Below are positions 6,480-43,008 of a stretch of 45,235 nt of DNA, one piece after another; the stretch's first letter is position 1; each line of letters starts with the position of its first letter. The notes below the pieces were generated by a model. It made no database searches. It saw only the letters and a program-made list of their open reading frames with translations, and was not told the origin of the DNA. This DNA comes from Chthonomonadales bacterium (lineage in GTDB: Bacteria; Armatimonadota; Chthonomonadetes; Chthonomonadales; CAJBBX01), in assembly GCA_013360745.1 (NCBI GenBank), contig JABWBA010000022.1:1-45235 (forward strand), read 5' to 3'. Made by a program: the position numbers and the translations under genes.

Positions 6480-8651
6480 ATGCCGGATCTATTGTTGGAG
6501 GTCGGCACGGAAGAGATGCCGGCTGCGGCTATTCCCGGCAGTCTGGCGCAGCTGGAACGGCTTGCGGCCCAGAAGATGGAGAGCGCTCGCCTTGCGCCCC
6601 GCGCCCTGCGAACCCTCGGAACGCCCCGGCGGCTGATCCTGCTGGCGTTCGACGTTCCGGAGCGACAGCCGACTGAGGTTCGGGAGGTGCGCGGGCCCGC
6701 GTGGGACGTCGCCTTCAGCGCCGACGGAGCCCCCACAGGCGCCGCGCTGGGTTTTGCGCGCAAGCAGGGGATTCGCGTCGAGGACCTGCGCCCTGTGGAG
6801 ACGCCGCAGGGCCGGTATGTGTCCGCCGAGGTGCGCGATGTCGGCAAGTCCGCGGCGGAGGCGCTCGGTGCGCCGCTTGCCGATTGCCTTCGGGCGCTCA
6901 CCTTCCCCAAGACGATGCGGTGGGGCGATAAAGGCGTTCGATTCGTTCGTCCGGTGCGCTGGATCGTCTGCACCCTCGGCGGCCAGGTGGTACCCGTGGA
7001 GTTCGCCGGCGTGCGAGCGGGCGATGCCTCTCGGGGCCATCGATACCTCTCCCCCGAGTCGTTCACCGTGGAGGACACGCCGGGATTCATCGAACAGCTG
7101 CGCGCGCGATCGGTGATGGCCGATCCTGCTGAACGCGAAGCTCGGATTCGAGCACAGGCCGAGACGCTCGCGGCCGATGTCGGCGGCCGGATCCCCTGGG
7201 ACGAGGAGCTGTTGAGTGAGAACGTCCATCTGGTCGAATGGCCGACCTGTCTGCTCGGCCGATTCGACGAGCGGTACATGGACCTGCCGAGACCGGTCCT
7301 CGTCACAGCCATGCGCAAGCACCAGCGCTTCTTCCCTGTTGAAGGGCCGTCGGGCGACCTGCTGCCGTGTTTCGTCTCCGTGCGGAACGGCAGCGAGGCG
7401 AGCATCGACAAAGTAAAGGCCGGGAACGAAGCGGTTCTGGCGGCCCGGTTCGCCGATGCGCACCATTTCTTCGAGCAAGATCGCGCCGAGACGCTCGATC
7501 GGATGACGGGGCGGTTGGAGCGCCTGCTCTTTCAAGATCGCCTCGGCGCCATGGCGCAGAAGCGGGACCGTCTCGTACGGCTCGCGGCGCCCCTCGGCGT
7601 ATCCCACGGACTGGACGAGCGGCACGTTCGGCTGGCCGAACGGGCGGCTGAACTGTGCAAAGGCGATCTGACCAGCCAGATGGTGATCGAGCTGCCGTCG
7701 CTGCAGGGCGTCATGGGCCGCGAGTACGCCGCCCTGCAGGGTGAGGAGCCCGAGGTCGCGTTGGCCATCGCGGAGCACTATCAGCCCCGCGGGGCCGGAG
7801 ACGCTCTGCCGGTCTCCCCTGTCGGCAAGCTCCTCGCGGTCGCCGACCGTATCGACACCCTCGTGGGCTATGCAGGTATCGGCATCATGCCGACGGGTTC
7901 GGCAGATCCGTACGGGCTCCGTCGCGCGGCGCATGGCCTGGTGCAGATCCTCGCGCTCGAACCCGATGTGCCCTCGTTGGCGTCCATGCAGGTCCAGGCG
8001 GCTGAGGGATATCGGATCGTCAACGGGCTCGATTTCGACCTGGATCCGCTCTGCAATGCGCTGCAGGGGCTCTTCAATCAAAGGGTCGCAGCCTATCTCG
8101 ACGAGCGGGGCGTTCGATACGACCTTCGTGACGCTGCGCTTTACGGCGGACTGGCCTACGGGACGATCGTCTACGGAGTCGTCCAGCGGGCGCAAGCCCT
8201 ATCGGAAGTTGCCGGCACGGAGCAGTTCAGCGCTACCGTCCAGGCCGCGGCTCGGGTGGCGAACATCCTGTCGAGCCGCGAGCAGGCGCCGGTGCCCGGC
8301 AAGGAGGGGATTCACGGAGGGCGGACGAACGCCGTCGAACGGGCGAGCGCGGTCCTGTACGCCACGACGCGCGATGTCCACCCCGATCGGTTCGCGGAAC
8401 CGGCCGAGACGGGCCTGTATGAGGCTGCGTGCGGTCTGCTGCCGGAGGTGGCAAGGGGCGCGGCGGTTTATGACTACGCGTCGGTCTACGCCGCGCTCCA
8501 GAGCCTGCGCGAGCCGGTGGGTCGGTTCTTCGACGACGTCCTTGTGATGTGCGAAGACGCGGAGCAGCGCGCCAATCGATTGGCGCTGTTGCGGCTGGTC
8601 GACGCCCTCTACCGTACGCTGGCGGATTTTCGGAAGGTCGTCATCGTTTGA
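6480..8651 (+). CDS. glyS: Glycyl-tRNA synthetase beta subunit
   Basis: The 723-residue protein is the beta chain of the heterotetrameric bacterial glycyl-tRNA synthetase, which binds tRNA-Gly and supports charging by the catalytic alpha chain. The N-terminus LLLEVGTEEMPA is a signature of GlyS. FPKTMRWGD and FVRPVRWIV near residues 141-160, the HD-like middle part and the ending NRLALLRLVDALYRTLADF (DALR-like anticodon-binding region) are all typical, as is the length. ATG 6480 has GGAAGGA about eight bases upstream; the longer upstream frame has no family similarity. The partner glyQ is usually directly upstream, but here the upstream neighbour is a divergent lipoprotein gene, so glyQ must lie elsewhere. 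Only 19 bp separate its stop from that of the convergent HAD gene. Confidence 0.96.
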   Translation: MPDLLLEVGTEEMPAAAIPGSLAQLERLAAQKMESARLAPRALRTLGTPRRLILLAFDVPERQPTEVREVRGPAWDVAFSADGAPTGAALGFARKQGIRVEDLRPVETPQGRYVSAEVRDVGKSAAEALGAPLADCLRALTFPKTMRWGDKGVRFVRPVRWIVCTLGGQVVPVEFAGVRAGDASRGHRYLSPESFTVEDTPGFIEQLRARSVMADPAEREARIRAQAETLAADVGGRIPWDEELLSENVHLVEWPTCLLGRFDERYMDLPRPVLVTAMRKHQRFFPVEGPSGDLLPCFVSVRNGSEASIDKVKAGNEAVLAARFADAHHFFEQDRAETLDRMTGRLERLLFQDRLGAMAQKRDRLVRLAAPLGVSHGLDERHVRLAERAAELCKGDLTSQMVIELPSLQGVMGREYAALQGEEPEVALAIAEHYQPRGAGDALPVSPVGKLLAVADRIDTLVGYAGIGIMPTGSADPYGLRRAAHGLVQILALEPDVPSLASMQVQAAEGYRIVNGLDFDLDPLCNALQGLFNQRVAAYLDERGVRYDLRDAALYGGLAYGTIVYGVVQRAQALSEVAGTEQFSATVQAAARVANILSSREQAPVPGKEGIHGGRTNAVERASAVLYATTRDVHPDRFAEPAETGLYEAACGLLPEVARGAAVYDYASVYAALQSLREPVGRFFDDVLVMCEDAEQRANRLALLRLVDALYRTLADFRKVVIV

Positions 8652-37470: not shown

Positions 37471-39888
37471 GTGATCATCCTCGCACTGCTGACCGCCGCC
37501 ATCGTCGTTCCGTCCATGCGGCAGGCCGATCCACGTCCCATCGAAGCCGTAGAGTACGCCGATTCGGCCGCGGCCGCGCGAGCCTGGCAGCCGCAATATG
37601 GCTCGGAGCCCGTGGCGTTGAGCGCCGAGAAGACGCCCGACGGAGGGGCGGCCCTGCGGCTTCCCTGCGACATGTCGAAGCTGCAGGAACGGGCCTGCTG
37701 GGATCGCGCCGTCTCCCTCGATCTTTCGCAGGAGTCCCGCCTCCGGTTCTGGATCAAGGCGACCGGCGATATCGCCGCTCTGGCCTCGTGCACCCTCTAT
37801 CTCAACGCGGGCGACGGTTGGTACGGCCAGAACTTCGATATCCCCGACGATGGCTGGCATCTCGTGACCCTCGACCGGGGCAGTTTCACCCCCGAAGGCA
37901 ACCCCGACGGCTGGGGCAAGATCCGCGCCATCCGCCTCTCCTTCTGGAAAGCCATGGACCGAAGTGCAGCCGTCTTCTTCGGCGGCATGGTCGCCGAAAG
38001 CGCCTCCGTCGCGGTCGTGCGCTGCACCCGTGGCGGCAAGGAGGTCGAGAGCTGGCCCGACCGAATGACCACCATGCTCAGGGCGGCCGGGATCGACGCG
38101 GGCACGGTCGACGATGTCGATGTGGAGCAGGGCGTGCTGCGGGGCAAGAAGATCGCCGTCTATCCGATGAACCCGGCCGTATCGGAGGCCGAGGCCGCCG
38201 AACTGCAGCGCTTCGTCGACGCCGGAGGGCGGATCCTCGCCTGCTACATCATACCGGAGCGTCTTGGCAGGCTGCTCGGCGTCGAGTCGACCGGCTGGCT
38301 CGGCAATGATCCCGCCGGACGGTTCTCCGCCATGCGCTTCGTCGGCGACGCCCCGGATGGGCTCCCCCGCATCGCCCGCCAATCCTCATGGAACATCACC
38401 ACGGCCCGAGCCGCCGGCCGCAACGCCCGCGTCATTGCCGATTGGATCGATGCCTCCGGGAAGCCTTCGGGCGCACCGGCTGTGCTCCTCAGCGACACGG
38501 GGGCGTTCATCTCGCACGTCGTTCTCGATGACGACCGTCCCGCCAAGCTGCAGATGCTCCGTGCGCTCTGCGGCTCCTTCGATCCGGGCGTCTGGGCGTC
38601 CATTGCCCGAGATGCGCTGCGCAACAGCCGTACGCTCAGCGGTCGCTGGGACGACATCGATCAAACGATCGCGGGCATCTCCGCCATGGCCGCTCGGGCC
38701 GCGACCCAGGCCGAGGTTGCGCCGCTCCTGCAGTCCGCAAAGCAGGCCTGCGCCACCGCCGACGATGCGGTACGGAAGGGCCGCTATCGGGAAGCGCTCG
38801 AACCAGCCGCTCTCGCCGAACAACGGCTCACCGAGGCGTTCGCCCGTGCCCAGAGCTCCCGCCCGGGCGAGTTCCGCGCCTTCTGGTGCCACAGCGCCTA
38901 CGGTGTCGAGGGCATGACCTGGGATCAAGCCGTCGCCAACCTCAAGCGGCACGGCTTCACTGCGATCATGCCCAACATGCTCTGGGGCGGCTCCGCCGAT
39001 TACCCGAGCGCCCTCCTGCCCGTCAGCGAACGCTCGCGGAAGGAGGGCGACGCCATCAAGACCTGCCTCGCCGCATGCCGAAAGTACGGCCTCGAGGTGC
39101 ATGTCTGGAAGGTCAACTGGAACCTTGGCAACGCGCCCGCCGATTTTGTCGAACGGATGCGCCGCGAAGGACGACTGCAGCGGACCAACGGCGGCGTCGA
39201 GGAGGCATGGCTCTGTCCCAGTCATCCCGCCAACTTCGCACTGGAGCGGGACTCCATGCTCGAAGTCGTGCGAACCTACCCGGTCGATGGCATCCATTTC
39301 GACTACATCCGGTATCCCGACAGCGCAAAATGCTACTGTGACGGCTGTCGCGAACGCTTTGTCGGCCTGCTCGCCAGCCGCTCCGATCGCCCGTTCACCG
39401 GCCTCAACGATTGGCCCCGTGATGTCCTGCGGGGCGGCCCTCTCTATGCCGACTATCAGCAGTTCCGCCGCTCCAACATCAACCGCCTCGTGAAGGCCGT
39501 CGCCGAGGAGGCCCGGCGCATCCGCCCGAGCGTCAGGATCTCCGCTGCGGTCTTTCCCAACTGGCCGGCGTGCCGCGAGGAGATCGGTCAGGATTGGGGC
39601 CTCTGGGTCCGCGAGGGCTGGCTCGATTTCGTCTGCCCGATGGACTACACCGCCTCGAATCGGGAGTTTCGCACCCGGGTCCAGATCCAGAAAGCCGAAG
39701 TCGCAGGCCGCATCCCGCTCTATCCCGGCATCGGCGCATCCGCGCCCGGCCTGAGCCCGATTCAGGTCCTCGAACAGATCGGCATCGTCCGCGACGAAGG
39801 CGCCCCCGGCTTTATCATCTTCAACTACGATCCGACCACCGTCTCGGAACACGTCGCGATGCTGAGCCTCGGGGCCACAAAGGAGTGA
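37471..39888 (+). CDS. Secreted GHL10/DUF187-like glycoside hydrolase, multidomain
   Basis: The 805-residue product starts at GTG 37471 with GGGAGGAGG eight bases upstream and a short signal peptide. Residues about 25-190 look like a carbohydrate-binding beta-sandwich (LRFWIKATGD, FDIPDDGWHLVTLDRG). Residues about 190-300 resemble a glutamine-amidotransferase-like fold (KKIAVYPMNPAVSEAEAAE, FVDAGGRILACY). A helical linker of about 90 residues follows. The last 340 residues match the family-10-like GHL10/DUF187 barrel: RAFWCHSAYGVEGMTWDQA, GLEVHVWKVNWNL, VDGIHFDYIRYPDS (conserved Asp), ISAAVFPNWP and FVCPMDYTASN. The substrate is unknown; related proteins cut wall or other glycans. Confidence 0.82.
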   Translation: MIILALLTAAIVVPSMRQADPRPIEAVEYADSAAAARAWQPQYGSEPVALSAEKTPDGGAALRLPCDMSKLQERACWDRAVSLDLSQESRLRFWIKATGDIAALASCTLYLNAGDGWYGQNFDIPDDGWHLVTLDRGSFTPEGNPDGWGKIRAIRLSFWKAMDRSAAVFFGGMVAESASVAVVRCTRGGKEVESWPDRMTTMLRAAGIDAGTVDDVDVEQGVLRGKKIAVYPMNPAVSEAEAAELQRFVDAGGRILACYIIPERLGRLLGVESTGWLGNDPAGRFSAMRFVGDAPDGLPRIARQSSWNITTARAAGRNARVIADWIDASGKPSGAPAVLLSDTGAFISHVVLDDDRPAKLQMLRALCGSFDPGVWASIARDALRNSRTLSGRWDDIDQTIAGISAMAARAATQAEVAPLLQSAKQACATADDAVRKGRYREALEPAALAEQRLTEAFARAQSSRPGEFRAFWCHSAYGVEGMTWDQAVANLKRHGFTAIMPNMLWGGSADYPSALLPVSERSRKEGDAIKTCLAACRKYGLEVHVWKVNWNLGNAPADFVERMRREGRLQRTNGGVEEAWLCPSHPANFALERDSMLEVVRTYPVDGIHFDYIRYPDSAKCYCDGCRERFVGLLASRSDRPFTGLNDWPRDVLRGGPLYADYQQFRRSNINRLVKAVAEEARRIRPSVRISAAVFPNWPACREEIGQDWGLWVREGWLDFVCPMDYTASNREFRTRVQIQKAEVAGRIPLYPGIGASAPGLSPIQVLEQIGIVRDEGAPGFIIFNYDPTTVSEHVAMLSLGATKE

Positions 39889-39947
39889 GGCCCGGTGGCT
39901 GAGCCTGTCGAAGCCACCGGGGCTTCGACAGGCTCAGCCACCGGGCC
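39889..39947. repeat. 27-bp perfect inverted repeat (REP-like hairpin)
   Basis: Arms 39889-39915 and 39921-39947 are perfect reverse complements around a 5-nt loop. The core of the second arm is CTTCGACAGGCTCAGCCACC, a palindromic motif I have seen scattered through unrelated bacterial genomes. It begins directly after the stop codon of the GHL10-like gene, so it may also act as its terminator or mRNA stabiliser. Confidence 0.85.
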
Positions 39948-39948
39948 G

Positions 39949-39976
39949 GTACGGGCAATTCATGAATTGCCCCTAC
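39949..39976. repeat. 28-bp near-perfect palindrome
   Basis: The centre GGGCAATTCATGAATTGCCC (39953-39972) is a perfect 20-bp palindrome. Three of four further flanking pairs match, with one mismatch at 39952/39973. This is a dispersed palindrome type different from the hairpin beside it, from which it is separated by one base. Confidence 0.85.
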
Positions 39977-39986
39977 GACGACGGGG

Positions 39987-40042
39987 CTCTTGCCTCTAGC
40001 CTCTTGCCTCTAGCCTCTTGCCTCTAGCCTCTTGCCTCTTGC
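39987..40042 (+). repeat. Four tandem copies of a 14-bp unit
   Basis: The unit CTCTTGCCTCTAGC occurs three times exactly (39987-40000, 40001-40014, 40015-40028) and once with one change (40029-40042). Each unit is itself two 7-mers of the form CTCTWGC, so the array is eight 7-mers. It ends about 15 bp before the ribosome-binding site of the next gene, so copy number could alter spacing or the leader of that message. Confidence 0.9.
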
Positions 40043-40068
40043 CTCTCAGCTCTCAGAAGGACCATCCG

Positions 40069-43008
40069 ATGCTGGGCGAGAAGGAAGGCTCCGGCGGACA
40101 GCCGGAGGGCAACATGGGTGGATGGCGAACGACGAGCGCGGCGTGGGTTGTCGGCGCGGCGCTGGCGATGAGCGTGGCGGCGCAGGGTCAGGGCGCGGGC
40201 GCCGCGAAACGGGACGGGGCGATTGCGCTCCGAACGAGATACGTGGAATGGGTGATCGGGCCGGACGGCCGCAACGTGCGTTTCGCGGTGCGCCGCACGG
40301 GCCGCGATCTTCTGGCGGCTGCGGGTTCGCCAGCGTTTATCGTCCGGGTGGGGGCCGAGACGCGGCTCCCGACGTCGTTCCGCCGGGAAGGGTCCGTGGG
40401 TGTGGTCGATTTCGGCGATGTGCGCGCGGAGATCGACATGCGGGAGACGCCCGACGCCGTTGTGATGCAGGTGCGCGCGGTGCGCGGGCCGGCGGAGGAG
40501 CTGACGTTCGGACAGGCGGCATTGAAGCTTGCCATGGATGGGTCGGACCCGCTTGAGTTCAGCGGGCTCGCCCGCAACGACCGGACGAACATACCGGAGC
40601 TGCCGGGTGCGACGACGCTGTTCCGGGCCATCGCCTATCGTCGGCTCGGGTTCGAGGGCGCCTCGGCCGCCTTCGTGTGCGCTCCCGCTGCGGGGCTCCG
40701 GAAGGCGCTGCAGCGGGTGGCGGCGGCTTCGCCGGAGTTGCCGCAATCGCCCATCGGCGGGCCGTGGGCGATGGATTCGCCGGCCAATCGGCGCTCCTAT
40801 CTCTTCAACTTCAACGGCCTGAACGAACGGGGTTCGAAGCCCTGGATCGACCTGGCCCATGCGCTGGGCGCCGGGCAGATCGACTTCCATGGCGGGACCT
40901 CGTTTCGGTTCGGTGACTTTGTGCCGAATCCGGAGACCTACCCCGACGGCATGGCGGATCTGAAACGGACGGTGGACGCCCTGCACCGGGCGGGACTGCA
41001 GGCGGGGCTCCACACCTACTCGTTCTTCATCGATAAGCGGTCCCGCTATGTCACTCCGAAGCCCGACCCGCGACTCGCCTCGGCGCGCTCCTTCACGCTG
41101 GCGGGGCCGATCTCGGCCGCCGATGGGACGATCACGGTGGCGGAGTCGACCGAGGGGGTCAACGCGATCACCGGCTTCTTCGTCAACAACAGCGCGACGC
41201 TCCGGATCGGCGACGAGCTCGTGACGTTTCGCGAGGCATCGCGGACGCCTCCGTGGCGTTTCACCGGCTGCGTTCGGGGCGCTTACGGCACCCACGCCTC
41301 GGCGCACGAGGCCGGAACGCGCGCCGACCACCTGAAGGAGCTGTTCGGCCTCTTTGCGCCCGACGCCGAGACCGACCTCTTCACCGAGATCATCGAGAAC
41401 ACGGCCCGGACGTACAACGAGTGCGGGTTCGATATGATCTATCTGGATGCGCTGGACGGCTCCTTTATCCATGCCGGCCCGGAGTGGGCGTGGCGCTACA
41501 GCGCCCGATTCGTGTACGACCTCGTTCGCCGCCTCAAGCGCCCGGCGATCCTGGAGATGAGCACCTTCCACCATCATCTCTGGTGCGTACGATCGCGCAT
41601 GGGGGCATGGGATGCGCCCCATCGGGGCTACAAGGAGTTCGTCGACATGCACCGGATCGTCAACCGGGATTGCGCGAGGATGTACTTGCCCTCGCATCTC
41701 GGGTGGTGGGCGGTGTCCGGATGGGGCAGTCTCCAGCAGGCCCGCACGTATCCGGACGACCTGGAATACCTGCTCTGCAAGGCGCTGGCCGACGATGCGG
41801 GCGTCTCCTTCGTGTACGGCTTCGCGCCGGAGACGTTCGCCGGCTCGCCCGGGGCCCAGCGGTACGCCGCGATGATCCGACGGTACGAGGCGCTGAGGCG
41901 GGAGGGGGCGCTGCCCAAGGCGATCCGGGAGCGGCTCGGCCGGGCCGGCGAGGAATACACGCTGGAGGAGGGACGCCCCGGCCAGCGGGCGTTTGTGCGG
42001 GTCGAGTACGAGACGCACACGGGAGAGGGATCGGCGTTCTCGGCGCACTTCGGAAACAGCCGCGCCGAGCAGCCGTTGTCCGTGCGGATCGAGCCGCTGA
42101 TGCGCGAATCGGCGGAAGCGCCCGGCCGATCGACGCTCCTGGACGCTTCCGACGCCCGGGCGCTGTCGAAGCCGACCGCCTGCGACGGCGTACGCCTCGA
42201 CGCGGAGACCGTGACCGTCGCGGGTCCGAAGCCCGCGGGCGCGCCGGCGACGGCTCTCAGGCTCCGCGCGTCGAACGCTCGGAGGGAGCGGCGGGGCGCG
42301 TGGGGGATGGTGGAGCGGGTCTTCGATGCGCATCGCAACCTGCGCGATTGCGGCCTCGGCGTCTGGGTCCACGGCGACGGCAAAGGGGCCGTCCTGAACT
42401 TCCAGCTTCGGAATGCGCCGAACCTATCGCCGGCGGTGGCGGAGCGGTATCTGGTGGTCGATTTTACGGGCTGGCGGTGGTGCACGCTGATCGAGCCGGA
42501 ATCGGCCCGACTCAGCGCCTACTCGTGGCCCTATGCGGGGCAGCGGTCGGAATGGGAGGCGAACCCCGGGCTCGCCTTCACCTCGGCTTATAAGACCTAC
42601 CATCCGGTGATCGACCTCGGGCAGGTTGCGGCGATCAGCGTCTGGGTCAACGAGACGCCGGCAGGAGGCTCGACCGAGATCCTCATCGGTGATATCGTCT
42701 CGCTGCCCCTGACGCCGTCGTCGATCTCCGAACCCTCGATCACCCTCAACGACCGGACGCTTGCCTTCCCGGTGACGCTGACTGCTGGCCAGTACGTCGA
42801 GTACGTACCCGGCGGCGGGAACCGCGGGGGAACGGCGAGCGTCTACGGTCCGGACAACGCGCTCGTTCGCAAGGTTGATCTGCGGGCAATCGCGCCGACC
42901 CTTCCGTCGGGCGGCGCGGATCTGCAGGTACAGTGTCGGACTGCCGACGGGGCGGCCCCTCGCGTGGCTGTGACGGTCATCACTCGAGGCGAGCGGCTCC
43001 GTTTCTGA
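40069..43008 (+). CDS. Large secreted TIM-barrel glycosidase-like protein
   Basis: The product is 979 residues from ATG 40069 (AGAAGGA eight bases upstream) or 964 from ATG 40114 (GGAGGG close upstream); the latter starts right at the signal peptide (GGWRTTSAAWVVGAALAMSVA). The N-terminal part is a beta-rich domain. The middle has barrel-like segments: IDFHGGTSFRFGDFVPNP, LQAGLHTYSFFID, GFDMIYLDALDGSF (likely catalytic Asp), AILEMSTFHHHLW and MYLPSHLGWWAVSGWG. The fold recalls GH27/GH36-type or related barrels, but I cannot name the family. An insert with VNAITGFFVNNSATLRIGDEL lies inside the barrel, and the last 300 residues form beta-sandwich domains. It follows the repeat stack and precedes the RCC1 protein on the same strand. 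Confidence 0.72.
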   Translation: MLGEKEGSGGQPEGNMGGWRTTSAAWVVGAALAMSVAAQGQGAGAAKRDGAIALRTRYVEWVIGPDGRNVRFAVRRTGRDLLAAAGSPAFIVRVGAETRLPTSFRREGSVGVVDFGDVRAEIDMRETPDAVVMQVRAVRGPAEELTFGQAALKLAMDGSDPLEFSGLARNDRTNIPELPGATTLFRAIAYRRLGFEGASAAFVCAPAAGLRKALQRVAAASPELPQSPIGGPWAMDSPANRRSYLFNFNGLNERGSKPWIDLAHALGAGQIDFHGGTSFRFGDFVPNPETYPDGMADLKRTVDALHRAGLQAGLHTYSFFIDKRSRYVTPKPDPRLASARSFTLAGPISAADGTITVAESTEGVNAITGFFVNNSATLRIGDELVTFREASRTPPWRFTGCVRGAYGTHASAHEAGTRADHLKELFGLFAPDAETDLFTEIIENTARTYNECGFDMIYLDALDGSFIHAGPEWAWRYSARFVYDLVRRLKRPAILEMSTFHHHLWCVRSRMGAWDAPHRGYKEFVDMHRIVNRDCARMYLPSHLGWWAVSGWGSLQQARTYPDDLEYLLCKALADDAGVSFVYGFAPETFAGSPGAQRYAAMIRRYEALRREGALPKAIRERLGRAGEEYTLEEGRPGQRAFVRVEYETHTGEGSAFSAHFGNSRAEQPLSVRIEPLMRESAEAPGRSTLLDASDARALSKPTACDGVRLDAETVTVAGPKPAGAPATALRLRASNARRERRGAWGMVERVFDAHRNLRDCGLGVWVHGDGKGAVLNFQLRNAPNLSPAVAERYLVVDFTGWRWCTLIEPESARLSAYSWPYAGQRSEWEANPGLAFTSAYKTYHPVIDLGQVAAISVWVNETPAGGSTEILIGDIVSLPLTPSSISEPSITLNDRTLAFPVTLTAGQYVEYVPGGGNRGGTASVYGPDNALVRKVDLRAIAPTLPSGGADLQVQCRTADGAAPRVAVTVITRGERLRF

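Follow-up and report, generated by a model that had tools for sequence, protein, structure and literature searches.

The three repeats that fill the intergenic gap at positions 39889-40056 of the window (the whole 45,235-nucleotide stretch of DNA analysed) are one copy of a lineage-specific, three-part composite, A-B-C, and not three unrelated repeats. We consider the most likely cognate enzyme of the hairpin module A to be an Slx1-like standalone GIY-YIG endonuclease encoded between repeat copies, at C51:16738-16956 of the same genome (rough probability of this reading, 0.6). In numerous unrelated bacteria, genes for such nucleases are bracketed by genome-specific dispersed hairpins, and the class of the repeat follows the clade of the nuclease across phyla.

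The stack separates two co-directional genes (Table 1). Its first base directly follows the stop codon of the upstream gene, and its end runs into a Shine–Dalgarno-like sequence ahead of the start codon of the downstream gene, for which no Pfam family scored over the curated cut-off. A sequence-only reading had described a hairpin, a near-palindrome and a tandem array in this gap, and all three were borne out. The 27-bp hairpin consists of two inverted copies of one unit, with a folding energy of -65.8 kcal/mol (z = -11.4 against shuffles), and the '14-bp' array is a tract of alternating 7-mers. No terminator-like site was found on the + strand between 39700 and 40200, and an intrinsic terminator was rejected because no T-run follows the 27-bp stem. 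The longest open reading frame called here starts from a TTG at 40018, within the heptamer tract, and this start is probably not real; repeat-derived leaders (LPLASCLLPLSSQ) recur at other arrays, where annotation would be misled. No A motif lies close to the homologues that other genomes have of the upstream gene, and synteny is not conserved around them, so they provide no clean empty site.

Table 1 Features of the repeat stack and its flanking genes (positions in the window)
Feature	Position	Strand	Remark
Upstream gene, glycosyl hydrolase-like (Pfam GHL10)	37471..39888	+	
Hairpin	39889..39947		Arms of 27 nt each, 100% complementary; loop of 5 nt
Module A, inverted copy (GGCTTCGACAGGCTCAGCCACCGGGCC on -)	39889..39915	-	5' arm of 27-bp hairpin
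Module A, forward copy	39921..39947	+	3' arm of hairpin; opens A-B-C composite unit
Module B GGTACGGGCAATTCATGAATTGCCCCTACGACGACGGG	39948..39985	+	Other strand: GTAG tag, then palindrome (REP-like)
Palindrome	39949..39976		Arms 39949-39962 and 39963-39976; 28 bp in total, one mismatch, 93%
Module C, heptamers CTCTTGC/CTCTAGC/CTCTCAG, ~10 copies	39986..40056	+	
Heptamer tract	39987..40056		Tandem array 39987-40046, period 14, basic period 7; heptamers continue to ~40056
Shine–Dalgarno-like AGAAGGA	40055..40061	+	Shares 2 bases with heptamer tract end
Downstream gene, 979 aa from ATG 40069	40069..43008	+	

Across the window's own genome (3.32 Mb in 127 contigs, 97% complete), there are 41 exact occurrences of CTTCGACAGGCTCAG and 38 exact sites of the palindrome GGGCRATTCATGAATYGCCC, with 0 for either reversed-pattern control; the stack motifs are therefore not chance occurrences, nor are they single-copy, as the sequence-only reading had allowed they might be. 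The core CTTCGACARGCTCAG is present in 63 copies. In most array clusters the modules follow one another on a single strand in the order A (hairpin unit GCTTCGACARGCTCAGCCACCGGG), B (GGTACGGGCRATTCATGAATYGCCCCTACGACGACGGG) and C ((CTCTNNN)n, ending in CTCTCAGCCACCGGG), and then the next A. We collected 39 B-centred units, mostly on contigs C18 and C91; CTCAGCC lies just upstream in 32 of them, and a heptamer starts at most 6 nt downstream in 31. The composite is about 115 bp long and often tandem at 115 bp (C18:21022, 21137, 21252, 21367). Positions 39922-40004 of the window match it at 96%, and the window copy stands out by a second, inverted A that completes a perfect hairpin. Dispersal and co-occurrence in the same order, which had been put forward as a check, thus hold elsewhere in the genome. 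As for the suggestion of an insertion-prone site or a composite mobile repeat, the composite comes close to what we found, whereas a nesting of unrelated repeats does not stand, since the parts form one unit; nested independent insertions were rejected because the identical module order recurs.

Contigs C18 and C66 start within arrays, which suggests assembly breaks there. The repeat-rich stretches share the tetranucleotide make-up of the window (r ≥ 0.97), and foreign contigs were rejected as their source on this basis.

Module A is a hairpin repeat of a widespread class that has the invariant core and a variable complementary stem. Its occurrence in its own phylum is patchy (23/121 genomes), and it turns up frequently in viral contigs; there, the invariant GCTTCGACAGGCTCAGC is kept while the surrounding stem varies, often remaining complementary (cgggC..Cccg, catgC..Catg). 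Module B was found as a single copy in each of 3 of 120 related genomes, with close matches in Pseudanabaena, Nostoc, Brasilonema and Haliovirga plasmid records. Phage contigs also contain it, and in several of them it lies just ahead of a start codon. The GTAG palindrome GTAGGGGCRATTCATGAATYGCCC reaches up to 18 occurrences per phage contig, both strands counted (L272-L317, viral contigs), and in several it directly precedes the start codon. The presence of A and B in unrelated bacteria and phage contigs agrees with the sequence-only reading, which had placed such motifs in unrelated bacteria. Heptamer tracts are found on their own in phage contigs as well, and the heptamer repeats of cyanobacteria are known as STRR.

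Module A is also found within coding sequence. An arabinofuranosidase-like gene (G000 C18:7021-9567, L131) has an in-frame tandem of A at 8055-8183, encoding (AELVEAPV)n, an insertion that the PDB alignment of this gene does not cover; other copies lie in coding frames at C72:24159 and C48:7804 (LRQAQPPG). At C105:2250-2550 and C125:16949-17350 of G000 (L142, L143), a CRISPR-repeat-like unit (TTTCAATGCCTGATCGGCATTAGTGTCGGATCC) and A-type motifs follow each other in alternation, an arrangement like that of a degenerate array with A units in its spacer positions.

When the A clusters of two genomes, G004 and G008, were read, a small GIY-YIG gene was seen to adjoin them, and the search with PF01541 came after. 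The window's own genome has two PF01541 matches, one of which we take to be uvrC. The match that was placed is the genome's only standalone GIY-YIG gene, C51:16738-16956 (E = 9e-15 for the protein), with A at 16601-, 16650- and 16981+ and hence on both sides. All five A copies of G004 lie within about 300 bp of its GIY-YIG gene, the gene of G208, from another phylum, is bracketed by A, and those of G008 and G075 have A on one side. The closest homologue in the other-phylum set (L440) has A on both sides, inverted, and the C-terminal reading frames of GIY-YIG genes run through A (ASTSSAAEAAALPLPEPVEG in G004). Exact A lies at most 300 bp from GIY-YIG genes in 7/78 cases versus 2/1940 control windows (p = 3e-9), and on both sides in 3/78 versus 0/1940. 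G037 and G055 carry A, yet none of it is beside the GIY-YIG genes examined there, and a viral scan for the GIY-YIG protein returned no relatives. Module A thus both brackets a standalone GIY-YIG gene and is dispersed in the same genome, and we propose the class of GIY-YIG-associated dispersed hairpins for it.

We surveyed the longest exact repeat common to the left and right 500-bp flanks of GIY-YIG genes at loci chosen solely by protein or domain match. Among 48 loci from the same phylum and others, 23 have a flank repeat of at least 16 bp and 20 have one of at least 20 bp; for the 16-bp threshold, random windows near glycosidases gave 0/800 and same-genome windows 4/760. In a second set of 30 loci from another phylum, repeats of at least 14 bp flank 7/30 versus 13/760. 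The uvrC genes of 18 genomes, which belong to another GIY-YIG family, have no flank repeats of at least 13 bp (0/18). Six loci of the first set adjoin tRNA genes (L403, L416, L426, L436, L437 and L438), the repeat being a piece of the tRNA in most, and without them about 17/42 have a flank repeat. This tRNA-linked group, with tRNA pieces repeated on both sides, represents a separate context and is possibly a tRNA-targeting element. The repeats are also dispersed: each of 15 source genomes had 4-68 matches to a query that combined units from many loci, and the 7 control genomes had none. The query gave none in G004 and G008, because its A unit came from another genome and the shared core is too short for the search.

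The bracketing repeats fall into three classes, defined by patterns that were written after the flanks had been inspected: TTCGAC-CTCAG (A type), GTCAT-CTGAG..GAAG (E type) and GTC-tagged palindromes (P type). Named records with a bracketed GIY-YIG gene include Shinella HZN7 (CGTCATCCTCGGGCTTGACCCGAGGATCCAT), Neisseria gonorrhoeae (CGTCATTCCCGCGCAGGCGGGAATCTAGA), Planktothrix (CTGTCATTCTGAGTGAAACGAAGAATCTCT) and Sphingomonas parapaucimobilis (CTTCGACTTCGCTCAG), as well as Novosphingobium and Methylobacterium bullatum; no bracketing repeats were found at the GIY-YIG loci of Cupriavidus (two) and S. paeninsulae. The gonococcal ATTCCC inverted repeat, which we take to be dRS3, seems to be a CGTC-REP member. 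In Azospirillum lipoferum 4B (L519) the GIY-YIG gene lies between sufB and sufC, bracketed by CGTCATCCCCGCGAAGGCGGGGATCCAG; these are CGTC REPs, and the arrangement looks like an insertion into the operon.

On a tree of 91 GIY-YIG domains (93 columns, with many unresolved forks), class A requires 7 changes versus a shuffled mean of 14.2, and class P requires 4 versus 12.4, with 0/500 shuffles as low in either case; class E requires 5 versus 6.9, and 5/500 shuffles were as low. One group of ten rows that spans several phyla consists entirely of P loci, and the standalone GIY-YIG genes seen here to be bracketed by CGTC palindromes (L401, L429, L513, L519 and L520) belong to one clade. The family as a whole is not uniformly linked to repeats, because 25/48 loci have no exact 16-bp flank repeat and repeats are nearly absent from a large conserved clade.

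An alignment of four A-linked proteins, with the C51 protein as one row, matched only the structures 1zg2 and 1ywl, which are of the bacterial Slx1 type. The C51 protein itself is a standalone GIY-YIG domain closest to UPF0213 structures, and is Slx1-like in this sense. Standalone prokaryotic GIY-YIG proteins, including 1zg2 and 1ywl, belong to the Slx1 cluster; Slx1-like or UPF0213 nucleases have been predicted to be repair enzymes, and the eukaryotic Slx1 members are structure-specific enzymes that maintain the copy number of rDNA (PMC1564403).

We hypothesize that the structure-selective GIY-YIG nuclease cuts A where it forms a hairpin or cruciform and that the break is repaired against another copy, which would duplicate A together with the adjacent B and the slippage-prone heptamers of C. 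This would give rise to tandem arrays of about 115 bp and would disperse the repeats into intergenic gaps, with the nuclease spreading the repeats and B and C as putative passengers; a role for GIY-YIG gives no explanation for B and C travelling with A. In the window, the inverted second A places the 27-bp stem right after the stop codon, so that the transcript would contain a very stable hairpin between the two genes, and the stack may affect expression. More broadly, we lean slightly towards three standalone GIY-YIG clades being the dedicated enzymes of three hairpin classes (TTCGAC-CTCAG, GTCAT-CTGAG-GAAG and CGTC-tagged palindromes, the last with the CGTC REPs previously regarded as enzyme-less), with many genomes having a nuclease gene bracketed by the genome's own repeat and the window stack being a composite copy spread in this way.

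The arrays could instead arise from recombination and slippage only, if hairpin-prone DNA breaks by itself as replication stalls, RecA repair and strand slippage make and move the arrays, and GIY-YIG genes land in fragile, repeat-rich gaps. The tandem periods of 115, 24 and 7 bp are those expected from unequal exchange and slippage, and a uniform heptamer tract adjoins the hairpins. We nevertheless consider this unlikely, as it leaves unexplained both that nuclease clade predicts repeat class across phyla and that the five A copies of G004 all sit at its GIY-YIG gene.

It is less likely still that the stack is an ordinary REP/BIME-type mosaic, spread once by a RAYT that has since been lost or lies in the unassembled part of the genome, with the proximity to GIY-YIG incidental for the stack. 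Module B has GTAG beside its palindrome, as have RAYT-linked REPs (PMC3733652), and its 38 exact sites fit the high copy number per genome of REPs of the GTAG superfamily. REPtrons can be absent from REP-bearing species, and Y1_Tnp genes are frequent in the phylum (71/121 genomes). Against a lost RAYT, however, PF01797 has no matches in the 97%-complete genome, where controls were detected, so the cognate RAYT that is usual, if not universal, for such REPs was not found there. Neither is A associated with PF01797 across 121 genomes (16/23 versus 55/98, Fisher p = 0.35), nor are there bracketing repeats at any of the seven Y1_Tnp loci tested, and A is strongly associated with GIY-YIG. The RAYT to which the sequence-only reading had pointed was rejected as the partner on the first three of these grounds, and the associated gene is that of the standalone GIY-YIG nuclease.

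We judge it very improbable that the stack is kept for regulation, with its hairpin after the upstream stop codon stabilising or attenuating the transcript and its tract tuning the next gene: its position directly between stop codon and Shine–Dalgarno sequence and its folding energy would suit such a role, but there is no T-run terminator on the + strand, other arrays sit between convergent, divergent or co-directional genes alike (by inspection, with no clear orientation bias), and A also occurs inside coding sequence, so the position of the stack is not regulatory as a rule.

The preferred reading, a composite whose module A is spread by a GIY-YIG nuclease, can be set against known systems. 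The motif strings of the stack were not found in the open-access literature, nor was a described link between Slx1-like or UPF0213 nucleases and dispersed repeats. Open-access PMC returned no paper linking GIY-YIG to such repeats and none with both GIY-YIG and 'repetitive extragenic palindromic'. The nuclease itself resembles the Slx1-like or UPF0213 enzymes (PMC1564403; PDB 1zg2, 1ywl) in its standalone domain and best structural matches. The heptamers are 7-bp tandem tracts in a bacterial genome, like the cyanobacterial STRR and those of Xanthomonas and Nostoc (PMC4692102), but they are other heptamers and are tied to A and B in a composite. BIMEs and other mosaics also repeat different modules as a unit; the composite here includes a heptamer tract and has a single module direction, whereas the REPs of BIMEs alternate in orientation (PMC2817692).

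REPs were divided into a GTAG and a CGTC superfamily in a 2013 survey, which reported no dedicated transposase for the CGTC REPs (PMC3733652). Module A resembles the latter as dispersed hairpins in many phyla but has a different core and no CGTC tag next to a stem starting with AT, reading CCGGTGGCTGAGCCTGTCGAAGCC in the window's own genome. The GTAG REPs and their RAYT (TnpA-REP) REPtrons, as PMC3733652 and PMC2817692 present them, are likewise short, dispersed intergenic palindromes that cluster, share the GTAG tag with module B, and have an enzyme gene bracketed by its paired repeat. They differ in that module A lacks the GTAG tag, the units here are mostly head-to-tail in fixed A-B-C order, and the bracketed enzyme is a GIY-YIG protein and not an HUH tyrosine transposase, in a genome without a detectable RAYT. 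Bracketing of GIY-YIG genes by CGTC palindromes and A hairpins parallels REPtrons, though the enzyme is a different one. Both CGTC REPs and dispersed hairpins such as TTCGACAAGCTCAG span bacterial phyla; if they are paired clade by clade with a small structure-specific nuclease, this would provide them with a means of spread, parallel to RAYTs but based on unrelated chemistry.
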